Source: Gemmatimonadales bacterium (GTDB taxonomy: Bacteria > Gemmatimonadota > Gemmatimonadetes > Gemmatimonadales > GWC2-71-9). From it: a stretch of 42,978 bases of DNA. This document shows, one piece after another, positions 13,604 to 27,463 of this stretch. The notes under the pieces were generated by a model that was not told where the DNA came from, searched no databases, and saw only the letters and a list, made by a program, of their open reading frames with translations. The position numbers were made by a program, and so were the translations under genes. Position 1 is the first letter of the stretch; every line of letters begins with the position of its first letter. The stretch lies in NCBI GenBank assembly GCA_013140635.1, contig JABFSM010000108.1, positions 1-42,978 on the forward strand, given 5' to 3'.

Positions 13604-13734
13604 GATTGGGGAACTTATCACCCACCCCCCTATCGGAGGAACGCCCGCGCGCGTTGCCGCGTGCTATTATTGGGTCTCGGATTCGTCACTGCTCATCAAC
13701 CGTGCTGCATCCCACTCTCACTTCGTGCGGGTCT

Positions 13735-14985
13735 ATGCATAAGCGTTTCCTGCTCTTGGCCACTGCCGCGATCCCGTCGCTCGCATGGGCCCAGCGCCCC
13801 ACCTGCGCTCCGGACAACGCCGGGTTGACCTTGCCGGCCGGTTTCTGCGCGGTGCTGGTCGGAGAAAACCTCGGTCCGGTCCGCCACCTTGCGGTGGCTC
13901 CCAACGGCGATCTCTTCGCCGCGAAGCGCGGTGCCCAGGGCGGCATCGTCGCGTTGCGTGACACGACCGGCGACGGCAAGGCCGACGTCGTCTCCAATTT
14001 TCTGCAAGGGGTCGGCGGGAGCGGCATCGCACTCAGTGCCGACGCGGTCTATTTCGCCGCCAACGGCAACGCCAACAACAACACCAAGGCCAGCGTGTTG
14101 CGTTTTTCCTGGAAGCCGGGCGAGTTGATCCCCTCCGGAGCGCCCGATACGATTGCCACCGACCTGCCGATCGGTGGTCATGGCGAGAAAGGAATTGCGC
14201 TCGGCCGCAACGATGCGCTCTTCGTTTCGTTTGGCTCACTGACCAACAGCTGCCTACCGCCAGGCATCGACCGGCAAATCGCCCAGGCGGGCCCGAACCC
14301 TTGCACCGAACTGGAGCAGCGGGCCGGCATCTGGCGCTTCGACGCAAAGAAAACCGGCCAAACGCCCGCCACCGGGACGCGGTGGGCCACCGGCCTCAGA
14401 AACGCCATGGCGGTGTCGGTCGATCCCGCCACGGGCACTCTCTATGCCGGAGTCCATGGTCGGGATGGCCTTGCCGAGCAATGGAAGTGGCCGGCGGAAG
14501 AGGGCAGAGAGAACCCGGCGGAGACGGTCTACGCGCTGGCGGAGGGAGCCGATGGTGGCTGGCCGTACTGCTACTTCGACTCCCGCCAGAAGGTCATGGT
14601 GCTGAATCCGGAGTACGGCGGCGACGGCACCAAGGCGGGAGACTGCGGCCGGAAGACACAGCCGGTTGCCTCCTTCCCCGGCCACTGGGCGCCGAACGCC
14701 ACCGCGTTCTCCCAGGGAACCCAGTTTCCGGCGGCTTTTCGCGACGGGATCTTCGTGGCGTTCCACGGCTCGTGGAACCGTGCTCCGGCGCCGCAGGAAG
14801 GGTACCGGGTAGTGTTTGCGCCCGTAAAGAATGGGAAAGGGACCGGCGCTCCGGTCAATTTCGCTGTCCCGGCCGGAGACCCGACCTCGATTCGCTTCAC
14901 CGGTCTCGCTTTCGGGCCCGATGGGTCGCTATACCTGAGCGCCGACCTGCAGGGGAAAATCTGGCGGGTGATGTACCGCCAGTAG
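13735..14985 (+). CDS. PQQ-dependent sugar dehydrogenase / glucose-sorbosone dehydrogenase-like, secreted
   Basis: Signal peptide MHKRFLLLATAAIPSLAWAQ; VRHLAVAPNGDLFAAKRG, GRNDALFVSFGSLTNSC, GHWAPNATAFSQGTQFPAAFRDGIFVAFHGSWNR beta-propeller motifs. Confidence 0.82.
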   Translation: MHKRFLLLATAAIPSLAWAQRPTCAPDNAGLTLPAGFCAVLVGENLGPVRHLAVAPNGDLFAAKRGAQGGIVALRDTTGDGKADVVSNFLQGVGGSGIALSADAVYFAANGNANNNTKASVLRFSWKPGELIPSGAPDTIATDLPIGGHGEKGIALGRNDALFVSFGSLTNSCLPPGIDRQIAQAGPNPCTELEQRAGIWRFDAKKTGQTPATGTRWATGLRNAMAVSVDPATGTLYAGVHGRDGLAEQWKWPAEEGRENPAETVYALAEGADGGWPYCYFDSRQKVMVLNPEYGGDGTKAGDCGRKTQPVASFPGHWAPNATAFSQGTQFPAAFRDGIFVAFHGSWNRAPAPQEGYRVVFAPVKNGKGTGAPVNFAVPAGDPTSIRFTGLAFGPDGSLYLSADLQGKIWRVMYRQ

Positions 14986-15035
14986 GAGGATGCGGTCTGA
15001 ACGGGTAGTTTGATGCACTCCCAATTGGAGGAGCA

Positions 15036-15644
15036 ATGAAGACCGGACTGCGCATCACCGCTCTTACCGCCGGCCTAGCCTTATTCGGACAGGCTCTTGC
15101 GGCTCAGCAACCGGCGCCGGCGCCGGCACCCCCGCCGCCGCCCCCAACGCCGCTTGCGGTCGGAGTCGACGCGCCTGACTTTACGCTGCCCGCCGCGACG
15201 ATGGCCGGCGTCGGCGCGCAACCATTGCGGTTGTCGGATCTGCGAGACAAGACCGTCGTCATCGCCTTCTTCTTCCGGGCGCGGACACGAGGCTGAACGG
15301 TCCAAATGGACGCGTACCGTGATCAGTACGCGCAGATTTTCGGAGACACCACCAAGGTTCGGCTCCTGGCCATCAGCGTCGACCCGGACACCATGCTGGC
15401 GGCCTGGGCCCAGGAAAAGAGCTACGTCCCCTGGACCTTCCTGAGCGACACGGGGGCGGTGGTCGGCAAGAAGTACGGCTCGGCTATCGTGCGCGCGAAT
15501 GGCTCGATGCTCGACAACCGCACCCTCTTCATCGTCGATCGGAAGGGGAAGATTGCCCATGTGATGGCCCCTTTCCGTGAAGTCGATCCGACGGCCTACA
15601 CGGAGTTGGCCGACGCGATCAAAAGGATCTCGGGCGGGAGATAG
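15036..15644 (+). CDS. Putative selenoprotein: redoxin/peroxiredoxin-like with in-frame TGA (Sec) at codon 15294-15296
   Basis: ORFs 15036..15296 and 15306..15644 are in the same frame, separated only by TGA. Joined: MKTGLRITALTAGLALFGQALA...VGVDAPDFTLP...TVVIAFFFRARTRG-U-TVQMDAYRDQYAQIFGDTTKVRLLAISVDPDTMLAAWAQEKSYVPWTFLSDTGAVVGKKYGS...NRTLFIVDRKGKIAHV...; U falls at the TxxC peroxidatic position; RBS GGAGGAG upstream of ATG. Confidence 0.85.
15311..15332 (+). promoter_or_regulatory. Candidate bacterial SECIS element (CGCGTAC-CGTGATCA-GTACGCG hairpin)
   Basis: Perfect 7-bp stem, 8-nt apical loop with G at loop position 2; loop begins 21 nt after the TGA. Confidence 0.65.
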
Positions 15645-15689: not shown

Positions 15690-18032
15690 ATGACTGCTCC
15701 CTTCACGCGCCCCCGCCTCTCGATTGTGGTCGGCGGACATGTCGACCACGGCAAGAGCACGCTGGTCGGTCGATTGCTGGCCGATGCCGGCGCGCTCCCT
15801 GAGGGAAAGCTCGAACAGGTGAGGGCCCTGTGCGAGAAAACCGGGCGCCCGTTCGAGTACGCTTTCTTGCTCGATGCGCTCAAGGATGAGCGGGCGCAAG
15901 GAATCACGATCGACACCGCCCGCGTCTTCTTCTCGACCGGGAGCCGCGAGTACCTCCTCCTCGATGCCCCCGGCCACGTGGAGTTCGTTCGAAACCTCGT
16001 GACCGGTGCCGCGCGCGCGGAGGCGGCCCTGCTGGTCGTCGATGCGAGCGAAGGGCTGCAAGAAAACTCTCGGCGCCACGCCTACCTGCTCAGCCTCCTC
16101 GGCGTCCGGCAGTTGGTCGTCGTCATGAACAAGATGGATCTCGTGCGGTACGATCGGGCCGTTTTCGATCGCCTCTCCGCGGAATTCTCGAGCTTCCTCG
16201 AGGGCTTGGGGCTCCTTCCCTCCGCGGTGATTCCCGTGGCGGCGCGGGATGGGGCCAATGTCGTCCACCGGTCCGAGGCCCTCGGCTGGTATCGAGGTCC
16301 AACCCTGCTCGAGGCACTTGAGGGGTTTGCGACCGAAATGCCTCCGTCGAGCGGTCCTTTTCGGATGCCGGTGCAGGATGTCTACAAATTCACCGGCGAT
16401 GGCGATGACCGCCGCATCGTGGCCGGGACGATCGAGAGCGGAACCGTCCGGCCGGGCGACGAACTCCTCTTCTTTCCGTCCGGCAAGCGCGCTAGAGTTA
16501 GGCGTCTCGAGGGTATGTCCGGGGAGTCGGCCACGGAAGCGGCGGCGGGTCAGGCGGCCGGCTTCACTCTTGACGAACAGATCTACGTGACCCGCGGGGA
16601 GGTTGCCGCGCGGGCGGATCAGCCGCGGCCGGCGGTCACCTCACGGTTTCGCGCCGCCCTCTTCTGGCTGGGCAAGGAGCCGCTCCGGACCGATCGGGAG
16701 TATCTCTTGAAGCTCGGCACTGCCCGCGTGCCGATGCGGGTCGAGAAGATCCACCAGGCGCTCGATCCCGCCACACTCAGCATCCGCACCGCGGCGACGA
16801 GCGTGGCGCGGCTCGATGTGGCGGATTGCACCCTGAGCCTGGGCCACGCCATCGCCTTCGACCCCGCCGATCAGGTTACCGCCACTTCACGCTTCGTCAT
16901 CGTCGACGACTACGAGATCGCCGGTGGCGGGCTTGTCCGAGAGCCGCTGGCCGATGCGCAAGCGCCGGCGCGCGACCGCGTCTTGCTCCGGAACGCCAAG
17001 TGGGAAACGAGCTTCATCCCCGTCGAGCGGCGGGCCGAGCGCTACCGCCAGCGGCCCACGTTGCTCCTGCTGACCGGTCCGCGAGATACCGACCGCAAAC
17101 AGCTCGCCAAAGCACTCGAGGCGCGCCTCTTTGCCGAAGGGCAGGTCGTCTATTTCCTCGGAATGGCCAACGTGCTGTACGGCATCGATGCCGACCTCGG
17201 CCGCGCCGAGCTCGATCGCGCCGAGCACATGCGGCGGCTGGGGGAGGTCGCCAACCTGATGCTCGACGCCGGGGTCATCCTGCTCGTGACGGCGGCGGAG
17301 CTCACCCGGAGCGATCTGGACCTGGTCCGCGCCGCCGTCCCCGAAGGGCGTGTCGTCACCGCCTGGCTGGGCGAGGGAGTGACGACCGATCTTCCACCTG
17401 ACCTGCGGCTCGATCAGGCCGAGGGAGCCGGCGCCTTGGTGGAGCGCCTCCGCGCTTTCCTCGCCGAACGGGATGCCTTTCGGCCGTCGGCGCGCGAAGC
17501 GGCTGCCCCGCCGGCGCCAGCGGTCATCTGGTTCACCGGCCTGCCGGCGTCCGGAAAGAGCACCGTTGCCGATTGGGTCGCCGCGGAGCTAACCCGCCGC
17601 GGCAACCGGGTCGAGCGCCTCGATGGCGATTCGCTTCGCGAGCTTTTTCCCGAAACGGGATGGGATCGCCCCGCCCGTGACGCCCATGTGCGGCGGGTGG
17701 GGCACCTCGCCAGCCGGCTCGAGGCCCATGGTGTCACGGTGATCGCCTCACTCGTTTCTCCGCACGCCGCCGCACGCGATTCGGTGCGGGCCCGCTGCCG
17801 GGTCTTTGTCGAGGTGCATGTCAGCACCCCCCTCGACGAATGTGAACGGCGCGACCCGAAAGGGCTCTACGCCCGGGCCCGGCGCGGCGAGATTCCATCC
17901 TTCACCGGCGTCAGCGACAGCTACGAGCCTCCCACCGCACCCGAAGTGACCGTCGACACCAGCCGAGTGACGGTCGAAGACGCGGGTTGGGCGGTGCTGG
18001 ACGGACTCGAGCGGGTGCGGAGGCCGAAATGA
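15690..18032 (+). CDS. cysNC: Sulfate adenylyltransferase large subunit (CysN GTPase) fused to a degenerate and then an intact APS kinase domain
   Basis: G1 [24 protein letters not shown]; middle [25 protein letters not shown]...[37 protein letters not shown] resembles CysC without Walker A; C-terminal [19 protein letters not shown]...[15 protein letters not shown]...[24 protein letters not shown] is intact APS kinase. Confidence 0.88.
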
Positions 18033-23700: not shown

Positions 23701-24617
23701 AGGGCTCTGGCTCCGATGAGATCAGGCGCGGCCACCCGTATCGTCGCAGAAACTTCCGCTTCGGTGTACGCCCTTCGCATGGCGGCACCGACCGCCTCGC
23801 CTTGCCGTTCGCTGCCGACAATGGCGAACGCCGTCGGGCCGCTTCCTGAAATCGAGCAACCGAGCGCCCCCGCCGCCAGCGCGGCGCGTTTGGCCGCGAG
23901 GAATCCGTCGAGGAGAGGCGCGCGCGCCGGTTCGGCGATTCGGTCGTCGATGGATCGGCCAAGGAGTGCCAGATCGCCCGAATAGGCTGCGGCCACGATG
24001 GCGGCGACCTGAGCCGCCTGGTGGAGGGCGGTGTCTCGGGACACCTCCCGGGGCAGCGCGGCGCGCCCATCGCGCGTATTGAGTTTGCGGTCGGGGTGAG
24101 CGAGCACCACGAGAAGACCCTCCGGGACCGGCAGTCGAAGCACATCCAACGGATCGAGCGAACGAATCAGGACCAGCCCGCCGAGCAGAATGGGGGCGAT
24201 ATTGTCCGCGTGCCGGCCGGAGAGGACCGTCTCCGACTCGAGCGCGGCCAGGAGCAGCGCCTCAACGGGAAGAGGCTGGTCCAGCAGTAAGTTTGCCGCT
24301 ACAGCCCCGGCCACGGCGGAGGAGGCGCTCCCACCCTGGCCGCCTGAGAGGGGAAGGCCCTTCTCGAGCCGCAGGGCAAGGCCGAAGTCGGCCCCGGCGG
24401 CGCGGAGAACGGCGTGGGCCGCAATCGCGCTGGCGTGGCGCGATGGGTCGGTTGGAAGCGAGGGATCCCCCGCCTCCTCGACTACGATTCCACGCCCGGC
24501 GGTGCGCCGGGCACGGACGGCATCGCCGAGTCCGCCGATAGCCAGGCCGAGAATATCCAGGCCGGGCCCGAGATTCCCAACCGACCCGGGAGCAAAGACG
24601 TGAACCTGTTCGCGCAT
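23697..24617 (-). CDS. thrB: Homoserine kinase (GHMP family)
   Basis: VFAPGSVGNLGPGLDILGLAI, KGLPLSGGQGGSASSAVAGAVAAN (GHMP motif), CSISGSGPTAFAI; 4-nt overlap with thrC. Confidence 0.93.
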   Translation of the reverse strand: MREQVHVFAPGSVGNLGPGLDILGLAIGGLGDAVRARRTAGRGIVVEEAGDPSLPTDPSRHASAIAAHAVLRAAGADFGLALRLEKGLPLSGGQGGSASSAVAGAVAANLLLDQPLPVEALLLAALESETVLSGRHADNIAPILLGGLVLIRSLDPLDVLRLPVPEGLLVVLAHPDRKLNTRDGRAALPREVSRDTALHQAAQVAAIVAAAYSGDLALLGRSIDDRIAEPARAPLLDGFLAAKRAALAAGALGCSISGSGPTAFAIVGSERQGEAVGAAMRRAYTEAEVSATIRVAAPDLIGARAL

Positions 24618-24672
24618 GCGGGGATTGTATACTTTCTCCGACTTCTTGGCATTCTACCCCAACCATAGCCTC

Positions 24673-25767
24673 ATGATTATCGGCGTTCCCCGGGAAACCG
24701 CCCCGCACGAGCGGCGTGTGGCGCTGATCCCGCAGACGGTCAAGCGGTTGGTCGGCCAAGGTCACCGGCTCCGGGTGGAAGCTGGCGCCGGTGAGCGCGC
24801 CTTCTACCCGGACGCGGAGTATGCCGCCGCCGGCGCGGAGATCCTTTCCGATCGCGAGACGCTCCTTTCCGGGAGCGAGCTGATACTCGCTGTGCAGCGC
24901 CTCCCTCTCGCCGATATCGGCCGCCTCCCGCAGGGTGCCGTGCTTATCGGCTTGATGCAGCCTGCCGGAGCCGCAGAGTACGTGGCGGCCGCGAAGATCC
25001 GCGGCGTCACCCTCCTCGCGATGGAATTGGTGCCGAGAACCACCAAGGCCCAGGCGATGGACGTGCTCTCCTCGCAAGCCACCATCGCCGGATACCAGGC
25101 CGTCCTCTTGGCGGCCAGCCACTGCGGCCGGCTTCTTCCGATGCTCACGACGGCGGCGGGAACGATCCCTCCCGCCAAGGCATTCGTGCTCGGTGCCGGC
25201 GTCGCCGGGCTGCAGGCCATCGCCACGGCTCGCCGCCTCGGAGCCGTCGTAAGCGCCTTCGACGTCCGTCCGGTGGTGAAAGAACAGGTGCAGAGCCTCG
25301 GTGCCTCGTTCGTCGAGGCGGAGGCGGTCGGTGGCGAAGGGTCGGGCGGTTATGCCAAGGAACTCGCCGACGAACAGCAGAAGAAGGTGCTTGAGGCCAT
25401 CGGGAAGCACCTTCCCGGCATGGACCTCGTGATCACCACCGCGCAGATCCCCGGCAAGCCGGCGCCGAGGCTGGTGACCGCGGAGATGGTCGCGTCGATG
25501 AAGCCGGGGTCGACAATCGTGGACCTGGCGGTGGAGTCGGGCGGGAACTGCGCCCTCTCCCGGGCCGGAGAGACGGTCGTCGCGCACGGCGTCACCATTC
25601 TCGGCCCGGTGAATCTGCCGAGCCAGATTCCTCAGCACGCCAGCCTGATGTACAGCCGGAATCTGCAGAACCTGCTCGACCATCTCGTGCGCGAGGGGCG
25701 CCTCACGGTTGCTCCCGACGATCCTATCGCGGGCCCGATGACCCTGACCCGCCCGGAGGCGCCATGA
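24673..25767 (+). CDS. pntAA: NAD(P) transhydrogenase subunit alpha part 1
   Basis: MIIGVPRETAPHERRVALIPQTVKRLVGQGHRLRVEAGAGERAFYPDAEY...GAGVAGLQAIATARRLGAVVSAFDVRP...KPAPRLVTAEMVASMKPGSTIVDLAVESGGN. Confidence 0.94.
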   Translation: MIIGVPRETAPHERRVALIPQTVKRLVGQGHRLRVEAGAGERAFYPDAEYAAAGAEILSDRETLLSGSELILAVQRLPLADIGRLPQGAVLIGLMQPAGAAEYVAAAKIRGVTLLAMELVPRTTKAQAMDVLSSQATIAGYQAVLLAASHCGRLLPMLTTAAGTIPPAKAFVLGAGVAGLQAIATARRLGAVVSAFDVRPVVKEQVQSLGASFVEAEAVGGEGSGGYAKELADEQQKKVLEAIGKHLPGMDLVITTAQIPGKPAPRLVTAEMVASMKPGSTIVDLAVESGGNCALSRAGETVVAHGVTILGPVNLPSQIPQHASLMYSRNLQNLLDHLVREGRLTVAPDDPIAGPMTLTRPEAP

Positions 25768-26060
25768 CACTCACCACCGTCATCCAGTTCTACGTCTTCG
25801 TCCTGGCGGCCTTCGTCGGCTATCAGGTCATCACCAAGGTGCCGCCGCTGCTGCATACGCCGCTGATGTCCGCGGCCAACGCCATTACCGGCATCTCGCT
25901 GGTCGGCTCGCTGGTCGCGGCCGGCAGCGACCACGGCACCGCGAGCAACGTCCTCGGTCTCATTGCGGTCATCTGTGCCACGGTCAACGTGGTGGGCGGA
26001 TTTCTCATCACCGACCGGATGCTCAAGATGTTCAAGCGCGACGAGAGGAAGCCCAACTGA
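25764..26060 (+). CDS. pntAB: NAD(P) transhydrogenase subunit alpha part 2
   Basis: 98-aa membrane protein: GYQVITKVPPLLHTPLMSAANAITGISLVGSLV...VVGGFLITDRMLKMFKR. Confidence 0.93.
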   Translation: MTLTTVIQFYVFVLAAFVGYQVITKVPPLLHTPLMSAANAITGISLVGSLVAAGSDHGTASNVLGLIAVICATVNVVGGFLITDRMLKMFKRDERKPN

Positions 26061-27463
26061 TGGAGCCGCTTCCCCTTCGCGAGCTCGCCGTTCAGATCAT
26101 CTATCTCGCCAGTTCGGTCTTTTTCATTCTGGGCCTGGGTGGCTTGTCCAAGCCCGAGAAGGCGCGCGCCGGGATGGCCCAGGCGGCGTTCGGGATGTTG
26201 CTGGCCATCGTCGGCACCCTGCTCCACGCCGACATCGTCCGCTACGACTGGATCATGGCGGGCCTCTTCATCGGGACGGCGATCGGCGTCGTCATCGGGC
26301 GCCCCCTCTTCATTTCCGTCCCGATGACGGCCATGCCGCAGTGGGTGGCGCTCTCCCACGCGGCGGGAGCGGTGGCGGCCACGCTGGTGGGCGTCAACGA
26401 ATTCGTGCTCCTCGGCTCGAGCCTCGGCCCAGGCACGATGGCCGCCCTCGGCTTTGAGGTCGTTCTCGGCGCGCTCACCGTTACCGGCAGCGTGATGGCG
26501 TTCGGCAAGCTGCAGGAGATTCTCCCCGGGCGTCCCGTGACCTGGCCGCTCCAGAATCTTCTCAACATGGTGCTCCTGGCCGGCGCCTTTGGACTCCTGA
26601 TCGCCCTGATGGTGAATCCAGAGCTGACCTGGGCCTTCTGGGCCATGACGGCCATCGCCGCGCTGCTCGGCATTCTGATGGTCCTCCCGATCGGCGGCGC
26701 GGACATGCCGGTCGTGGTCTCGTTGCTCAATGCTTACGCCGGGCTTTCCGCCTCGGCGATGGGTTTTGCGCTCGGCAACAACCTGCTGATCATCGTCGGG
26801 GCGCTCGATGGCGCCTCCGGCTTCTTGCTGGCGGTCCTGATGTGCAAGGCGATGAACCGGAGCTTCGCGAATGTGCTCTTCGGCGCCTTCGGTGCGCCCG
26901 CACCGGCCGCGCTCAAGAGCGCGGACGGGCAGGAGATGCGCGCGCTGACCCCGGAGGACGCGGCAATCCGGCTGGCCTATGCGGCACAAGTCATCGTCGT
27001 TCCGGGGTATGGACTGGCGGTTGCCCAGGCGCAGCATGCCCTCCGGGAGCTCACTGACCTGATGGAAAAGCGGGGGGTGGAGGTCAAGTACGCCATCCAT
27101 CCGGTGGCCGGCCGGATGCCGGGACACATGAACGTGCTGCTGGCGGAGGCCAACGTTCCATACGACAAGCTCTACGACATGGACGAGATCAACGCCGAGT
27201 TCGAACGGACCGATGTGGCGCTCGTGATCGGCGCGAACGATGTGGTCAATCCGGCGGCCCGGTCAGATCCGGGGAGCCCGATTTTCGGCATGCCGATCCT
27301 GGACGTCGACCGCGCCAAGTCGGTTGTCGTCCTGAAACGGGGCAAGGGGGCCGGGTTCGCCGGGATCGAGAATGAGCTCTTTTTTCACCCCAAGACCTCC
27401 ATGCTCTTTGGGGACGCAAAAGCCTCCCTAAGTCGGTTAGTCACAGAGTTAAAGGCCCTTTGA
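26060..27463 (+). CDS. pntB: NAD(P) transhydrogenase subunit beta
   Basis: IIYLASSVFFILGLGGLSKPEKAR; MPQWVALSHAAGAVAATLVG; YGLAVAQAQHALRELTDLMEKRGVEVKYAIHPVAGRMPGHMNVLLAEANVPYD. Confidence 0.95.
   Translation: MEPLPLRELAVQIIYLASSVFFILGLGGLSKPEKARAGMAQAAFGMLLAIVGTLLHADIVRYDWIMAGLFIGTAIGVVIGRPLFISVPMTAMPQWVALSHAAGAVAATLVGVNEFVLLGSSLGPGTMAALGFEVVLGALTVTGSVMAFGKLQEILPGRPVTWPLQNLLNMVLLAGAFGLLIALMVNPELTWAFWAMTAIAALLGILMVLPIGGADMPVVVSLLNAYAGLSASAMGFALGNNLLIIVGALDGASGFLLAVLMCKAMNRSFANVLFGAFGAPAPAALKSADGQEMRALTPEDAAIRLAYAAQVIVVPGYGLAVAQAQHALRELTDLMEKRGVEVKYAIHPVAGRMPGHMNVLLAEANVPYDKLYDMDEINAEFERTDVALVIGANDVVNPAARSDPGSPIFGMPILDVDRAKSVVVLKRGKGAGFAGIENELFFHPKTSMLFGDAKASLSRLVTELKAL

Follow-up and report, generated by a model that had tools for sequence, protein, structure and literature searches.

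A probable selenocysteine peroxiredoxin with a putative export signal in mostly uncultured Gemmatimonadota

The window, that is the whole stretch of 42,978 nucleotides analysed here, carries on its forward strand a redoxin gene (15036..15644) whose reading frame contains one internal stop codon, the TGA at 15294..15296. When this TGA is read as selenocysteine (Sec, U), the frame encodes 202 residues before a TAG stop, with Sec as residue 87 in the context ...FFFRARTRGUTVQMDAYRDQY... and not a single Cys. A Shine-Dalgarno-like GGAGGAG (15027..15033, +) is found in the sequence 2 nt upstream of the ATG, its GGAGG core ending 4 nt upstream of this codon. In the ORF listing the two halves of the gene, of 86 and 112 amino acids, appear as separate ORFs, the second one spanning 15306-15644. 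The initial annotation had described two ORFs in the same frame split by one TGA, a joined protein devoid of any other Cys codon, and U at the Cys position of the TxxC motif. The translation bears out the first two points, and the third was affirmed by the location of the TGA at the peroxidatic column of related enzymes, U in TxxU taking the place of the peroxidatic Cys of AhpC/TSA-type peroxiredoxins in the joined ORF. A genome-wide reassignment of TGA was ruled out, as this codon is the normal stop in 5 of the 12 Pfam-confirmed window genes checked.

Upstream of the redoxin gene lies a glucose/sorbosone dehydrogenase-like gene (GSDH; 13606..14985, +; Pfam PF07995), which we regard as context only; 9 of the 58 assessable loci, including that of the window, have a gene of this type upstream of the redoxin gene. 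A fused sulfate adenylyltransferase GTPase/APS kinase gene of the CysN-CysC type (15690-18032, +) follows directly downstream. Further along in the same direction, the window contains genes for the NAD(P) transhydrogenase alpha (AlaDh/PNT) and beta (PNTB) subunits (24616-27463, +). Raw ORF clusters of the neighbours consisted in part of antisense shadow ORFs, and only Pfam-confirmed neighbours were used.

The product matches the Pfam models AhpC-TSA (5e-23, 81.8 bits against a cut-off of 26) and Redoxin (8.9e-17), both over residues 42-180 and thus across the TGA. With 29 homologues as input, AlphaFold2 gave a model of mean pLDDT 88.6, for which Foldseek retrieved Bcp4 with an E value of 3e-13, the best PDB fold matches being peroxiredoxins of the BCP/PrxQ and AhpE types. 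Concordantly, archaeal PrxQ/BCP proteins and mycobacterial AhpE are among the best solved relatives by sequence. A thioredoxin fold of the PrxQ/AhpE-like kind is predicted for the protein, in which Thr84 and Arg162 occupy conserved peroxiredoxin positions. Throughout the 29-sequence alignment Arg162 does not vary, and the position three residues before Sec, T84 in the window protein, is Thr or Ser in all 83 Sec homologues. No other Cys occurs from 45 residues before Sec to the C-terminus in 82 of these 83 proteins and, because a second Cys is missing from this region, the predicted product is a 1-Sec enzyme that lacks a resolving Cys.

Moreover, the N-terminus (15036..15104, +), which reads MKTGLRITALTAGLALFGQALAA followed by QQ, resembles a cleavable signal peptide, and a crude test for a hydrophobic segment followed by A-x-A was positive here and in nearly all homologues. 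The peroxiredoxin is therefore probably exported, as judged from these sequence features.

The window protein deviates from the peroxiredoxin motif PxxxTxxC/U in its Pro, which is replaced by Phe at residue 80 (codon 15273-15275), seven residues before Sec. Among the 83 Sec homologues this column holds F in 32, Y in 32, P in 14 and other residues in 5 (69 non-Pro in total), whereas all 34 Cys homologues have Pro; loss of Pro is thus confined to Sec forms. Since the tree contains few changes between Pro and non-Pro, namely five, the tie between Pro loss and Sec in these sequences is suggestive but not proven; an independent-pairs test of motif Pro against Sec pointed on balance in the same direction, with too few supported pairs for significance. 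Since most Sec members are without the motif Pro, the motif by itself does not suffice to assume peroxidase activity.

The set of homologues comprised 118 genes from 151 searched genomes (the window's genome and 150 relatives), and the relatives named in a genome collection are nearly all Gemmatimonadota. At the column of the window TGA, 83 of these genes have TGA, 34 have a Cys codon (TGC/TGT) and one has Asp (GAC). The latter, L126 of genome G003, is a distant homologue and, because of the Asp at the peroxidatic column, its product is probably not a peroxidase. Purifying selection acts on the codons 3' of the TGA. Nine closely related pairs of Sec genes gave dN/dS values of roughly 0.07-0.17 by Nei-Gojobori counts that start 15 codons past the TGA; a tenth pair, the window gene and L022, had been compared across gaps and was left out. 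On the tree, Sec and Cys must have replaced each other at least nine times. One member species of genus g28 (G027/L027) carries Cys and has neither a hairpin of the kind described below nor a tRNA-Sec match, and its Cys sequence clusters with the Sec sequences of its own genus, inside a larger Sec clade.

Several loci showed additional features. In genus g52, a Cys and a Sec paralogue of the redoxin gene stand in tandem (L082, L083, L084, L106, L127), and L232 has two Sec copies separated by about 0.6 kb. Two further copies, L143 and L168, come from genomes labelled as Terrabacteria group ANGP1 and Acidobacteria. The names of their contigs share the style of many Gemmatimonadota entries, and these copies possibly represent misbinned contigs rather than gene transfer.

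Downstream of the TGA the coding sequence contains a bacterial SECIS-like hairpin (15311..15332, +), which starts 14 nt past the TGA and consists of the stem CGCGUAC/GUACGCG (15311-15317 / 15326-15332) and the 8-nt apical loop CGUGAUCA (15318-15325). This loop begins 21 nt past the UGA and has the G expected in the small apical loop of such elements. Folding energy of the downstream RNA was by itself unremarkable compared to shuffled sequences (z -1.8 to 0), and the hairpin is argued from its conservation. A 6-bp core was unchanged in all 111 distinct Sec sequences and the loop was kept in 102 of them, while all seven pairs were retained in 68 of 70 Sec sequences as opposed to 2 of 34 Cys homologues. 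The codons GCG-TAC-CGT-GAT are nearly fixed in Sec genes; in the Cys homologues, by comparison, CGC prevails and GAC is more frequent. When genomes were sampled from the phylum, a strict hairpin pattern was detected in 168 of 395, and in none of the 6 sampled genomes from outside the class. An Rfam scan of the window gave no match, and an independent-pairs test of Sec against the hairpin again pointed in the same direction on balance, the supported pairs being too few for significance.

The outermost pair of the stem covaries in most, but not all, Sec sequences. In a 52-sequence alignment it was CG in 19, GC in 18, UA in 12 and AU in 1 sequence and unpaired in 2, and 31 cells were changed on both sides compared to 11.2 in shuffles. 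The prediction that sequences with A on the 5' side would form an A-U pair at this position failed, as 15 further sequences of this kind had A.A (12), A.C (2) or A.G (1). Sequences with A at the 5' side belong partly to the same family and partly to other families of the class, and mostly have the A.A mismatch. Since the seventh pair is not universal, we claim universality for the 6-bp core only.

The genome from which the window derives encodes a tRNA-Sec with UCA anticodon (70 bits), a complete selD (391 bits), a selB that is cut by a contig start (209 bits over model positions 76-579) and, at a contig end, the C-terminal piece of selA. With presence defined as a match above 60 bits, tRNA-Sec was found in 87 of 100 genomes with the TGA form compared to 3 of 21 genomes with Cys forms only (Fisher p about 1.5e-10, a value not corrected for relatedness). 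Several of the 13 TGA-form genomes without tRNA-Sec above this threshold are incomplete. When Sec was tested against tRNA-Sec with independent pairs, just five pairs were supported and the result, with the same direction on balance, was not significant. Altogether, recoding of the UGA as Sec is strongly supported.

One in-frame stop in one draft assembly, with the two halves listed as separate ORFs, would usually point to a pseudogene, or to a sequencing or assembly error for TGC or TGT. However, the identical TGA column recurs in the 83 homologues from many genera, the sequence 3' of it is under purifying selection, and a hairpin conserved at the nucleotide level accompanies the TGA and is missing in most Cys homologues. 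Recurrence across independent assemblies refutes the reading of the TGA as a true stop of a decayed or misread gene, to which we assign a negligible probability. The same data favour the initial annotation on the computational checks that it had proposed: homologues show U or C at the column in question (TGA 83 and Cys 34 of 118), the downstream codons are constrained in the nine close pairs, a SECIS-like hairpin conserved in Sec genes lies directly 3' of the TGA, and tRNA-Sec, selD, the cut selB and the end of selA all occur in the same genome, while a sequencing error is excluded by the presence of the TGA in dozens of independently assembled genomes. A gene split into two cooperating polypeptides, in which the TGA terminates translation and the in-frame ATG at 15306, 9 nt downstream, reinitiates it, could draw on the ORF listed at 15306-15644 and on the presence of this ATG 9 nt past the TGA in most Sec homologues. 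Yet most Cys homologues have the same Met codon, where it specifies an ordinary residue, and some Sec genes are devoid of an in-frame ATG at this place (CAT in L116 and L117, GTG in L089). Furthermore, the fold would be incomplete in either half, and this reading explains neither the hairpin nor the association with tRNA-Sec, so that we consider a split gene very improbable. We are thus highly confident that the locus is a genuine Sec-peroxiredoxin gene.

Sec-peroxiredoxins with a TxxU motif are a known family of bacterial selenoproteins (PMC1088965, PMC2398784, PMC1794560, PMC13188914), with PrxU of Eubacterium acidaminophilum and the Prx selenoproteins of the Sargasso Sea and GOS data sets as examples belonging to PF00578/COG1225 (PMC1088965, PMC2398784, PMC13188914). 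The Gemmatimonadota protein shares with them the AhpC/TSA fold, Sec at the peroxidatic TxxU position and a SECIS within the coding sequence after the UGA, but differs in that it is probably exported and in that the motif Pro is mostly Phe or Tyr. It is not a member of the NCBIfam family PrxU (NF040737), for which it scored 45.1 bits against a curated cut-off of 270, and it stayed below the cut-off of every NCBIfam model that it matched. Compared to PrxQ/BCP and the 1-Cys AhpE, which provide its best sequence and fold matches (2ywn, 3hjp, 5epf, 1xxu), it has a single chalcogen residue like AhpE; on the other hand, it has Sec in place of Cys and a signal peptide-like N-terminus, and identity in the best fold matches is 25-30%. 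The word stem Gemmatimon- was absent from the selenoproteome papers searched for it, and full-text searches for selenoproteins together with Gemmatimonadetes or Gemmatimonadota, covering mainly open-licence papers, yielded no report of the protein as judged by titles and the beginning of abstracts. The Sec-peroxiredoxin arrangement is present in many related, mostly uncultured Gemmatimonadota, and we found no description of it in the searchable (open-licence) papers.

Gene neighbourhood offers a hint at the reductant. Among 63 loci with at least 2.5 kb of sequence 3' of the redoxin gene, 34 have a gene for a TlpA-like protein within 2.5 kb, and in 33 of the 63 a gene for a membrane protein of the DsbD_TM/CcdA type is present as well. 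The TlpA-like neighbour is a CxxC thioredoxin with a signal peptide, and its gene is convergent with the redoxin gene, so the two do not form one operon. In the window's genome, the TlpA/CcdA pair is located on another contig (C86), away from the redoxin gene. A related arrangement is the cell-envelope peroxide pathway ScsB-TlpA-PprX of Caulobacter (Cho et al. 2012, as described in PMC5403849). Its members, a membrane electron carrier, a TlpA-like thioredoxin of the periplasm and a peroxiredoxin of the envelope, correspond to those of the chain proposed here, with the differences that in Gemmatimonadota the peroxidase would be a selenoprotein, the carrier is of the DsbD_TM/CcdA type and the link is drawn from gene neighbourhood alone. 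Because of the TlpA/CcdA neighbourhood and the likeness to the Caulobacter pathway, we propose re-reduction by a CcdA-TlpA pair.

In the proposed mechanism, the tRNA-Sec(UCA)/SelB system of the genome itself inserts Sec at UGA 87 under the guidance of the hairpin in the coding sequence, a step that the sequence supports. After export, Sec would attack the peroxide and be converted to a selenenic acid. Without a resolving Cys, the enzyme would have to be reset by an external thiol, most likely that of the exported TlpA-like CxxC thioredoxin, which in turn may receive cytoplasmic electrons via the CcdA/DsbD-type membrane protein. Export, peroxidase activity and the reductant are what we infer here, and taken as a whole an envelope peroxidase with CcdA-TlpA as its reductant is a proposition that we see as evenly balanced.

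Small thiols, mycothiol for instance, can serve 1-Cys enzymes of the AhpE type. A peroxidase that is reduced by a low-molecular-weight thiol or by a different thioredoxin would agree with the PDB entry on AhpE with mycothiol among the fold matches and with the non-adjacent position of the TlpA/CcdA pair in the window and in roughly half of the relatives. The pair recurs next to the redoxin gene, in 33 of the 63 loci that could be assessed, and Caulobacter provides a precedent in ScsB-TlpA-PprX (PMC5403849); both points argue against another reductant, which we nevertheless treat as a serious, if not the favoured, possibility. It is also conceivable that the selenoprotein has a peroxiredoxin fold and another substrate, acting as a Sec-dependent thiol/selenol reductase or sensor of the envelope. 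The missing PxxxTxxC/U Pro of 69 of the 83 Sec members, kept by all 34 Cys homologues, and the thioredoxin-like redox proteins encoded nearby are in line with such a function. We consider it unlikely in view of the Thr/Ser retained at -3 throughout the Sec homologues, the invariant R162 of the 29-sequence alignment and the similarity to BCP/PrxQ and AhpE peroxidases in both sequence and fold.

More broadly, we tentatively suggest a clade that spans the class and consists of exported 1-Sec peroxiredoxins; selenium would have permitted these proteins to lose the motif Pro, and they would act as terminal peroxidases in an envelope pathway run by CcdA-TlpA. If true, the change from Pro to an aromatic residue would be an active-site design specific to Sec, as the Cys lineages keep Pro. 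Sec and Cys relatives whose motif residue changes in the Sec forms only constitute a natural data set for asking why selenium is used over sulfur, and the tandem pairs of g52 together with L232 add a natural side-by-side set of Sec and Cys forms. Since a gene caller that treats TGA as a stop splits this gene, the peroxide defence of Gemmatimonadota is probably under-annotated.
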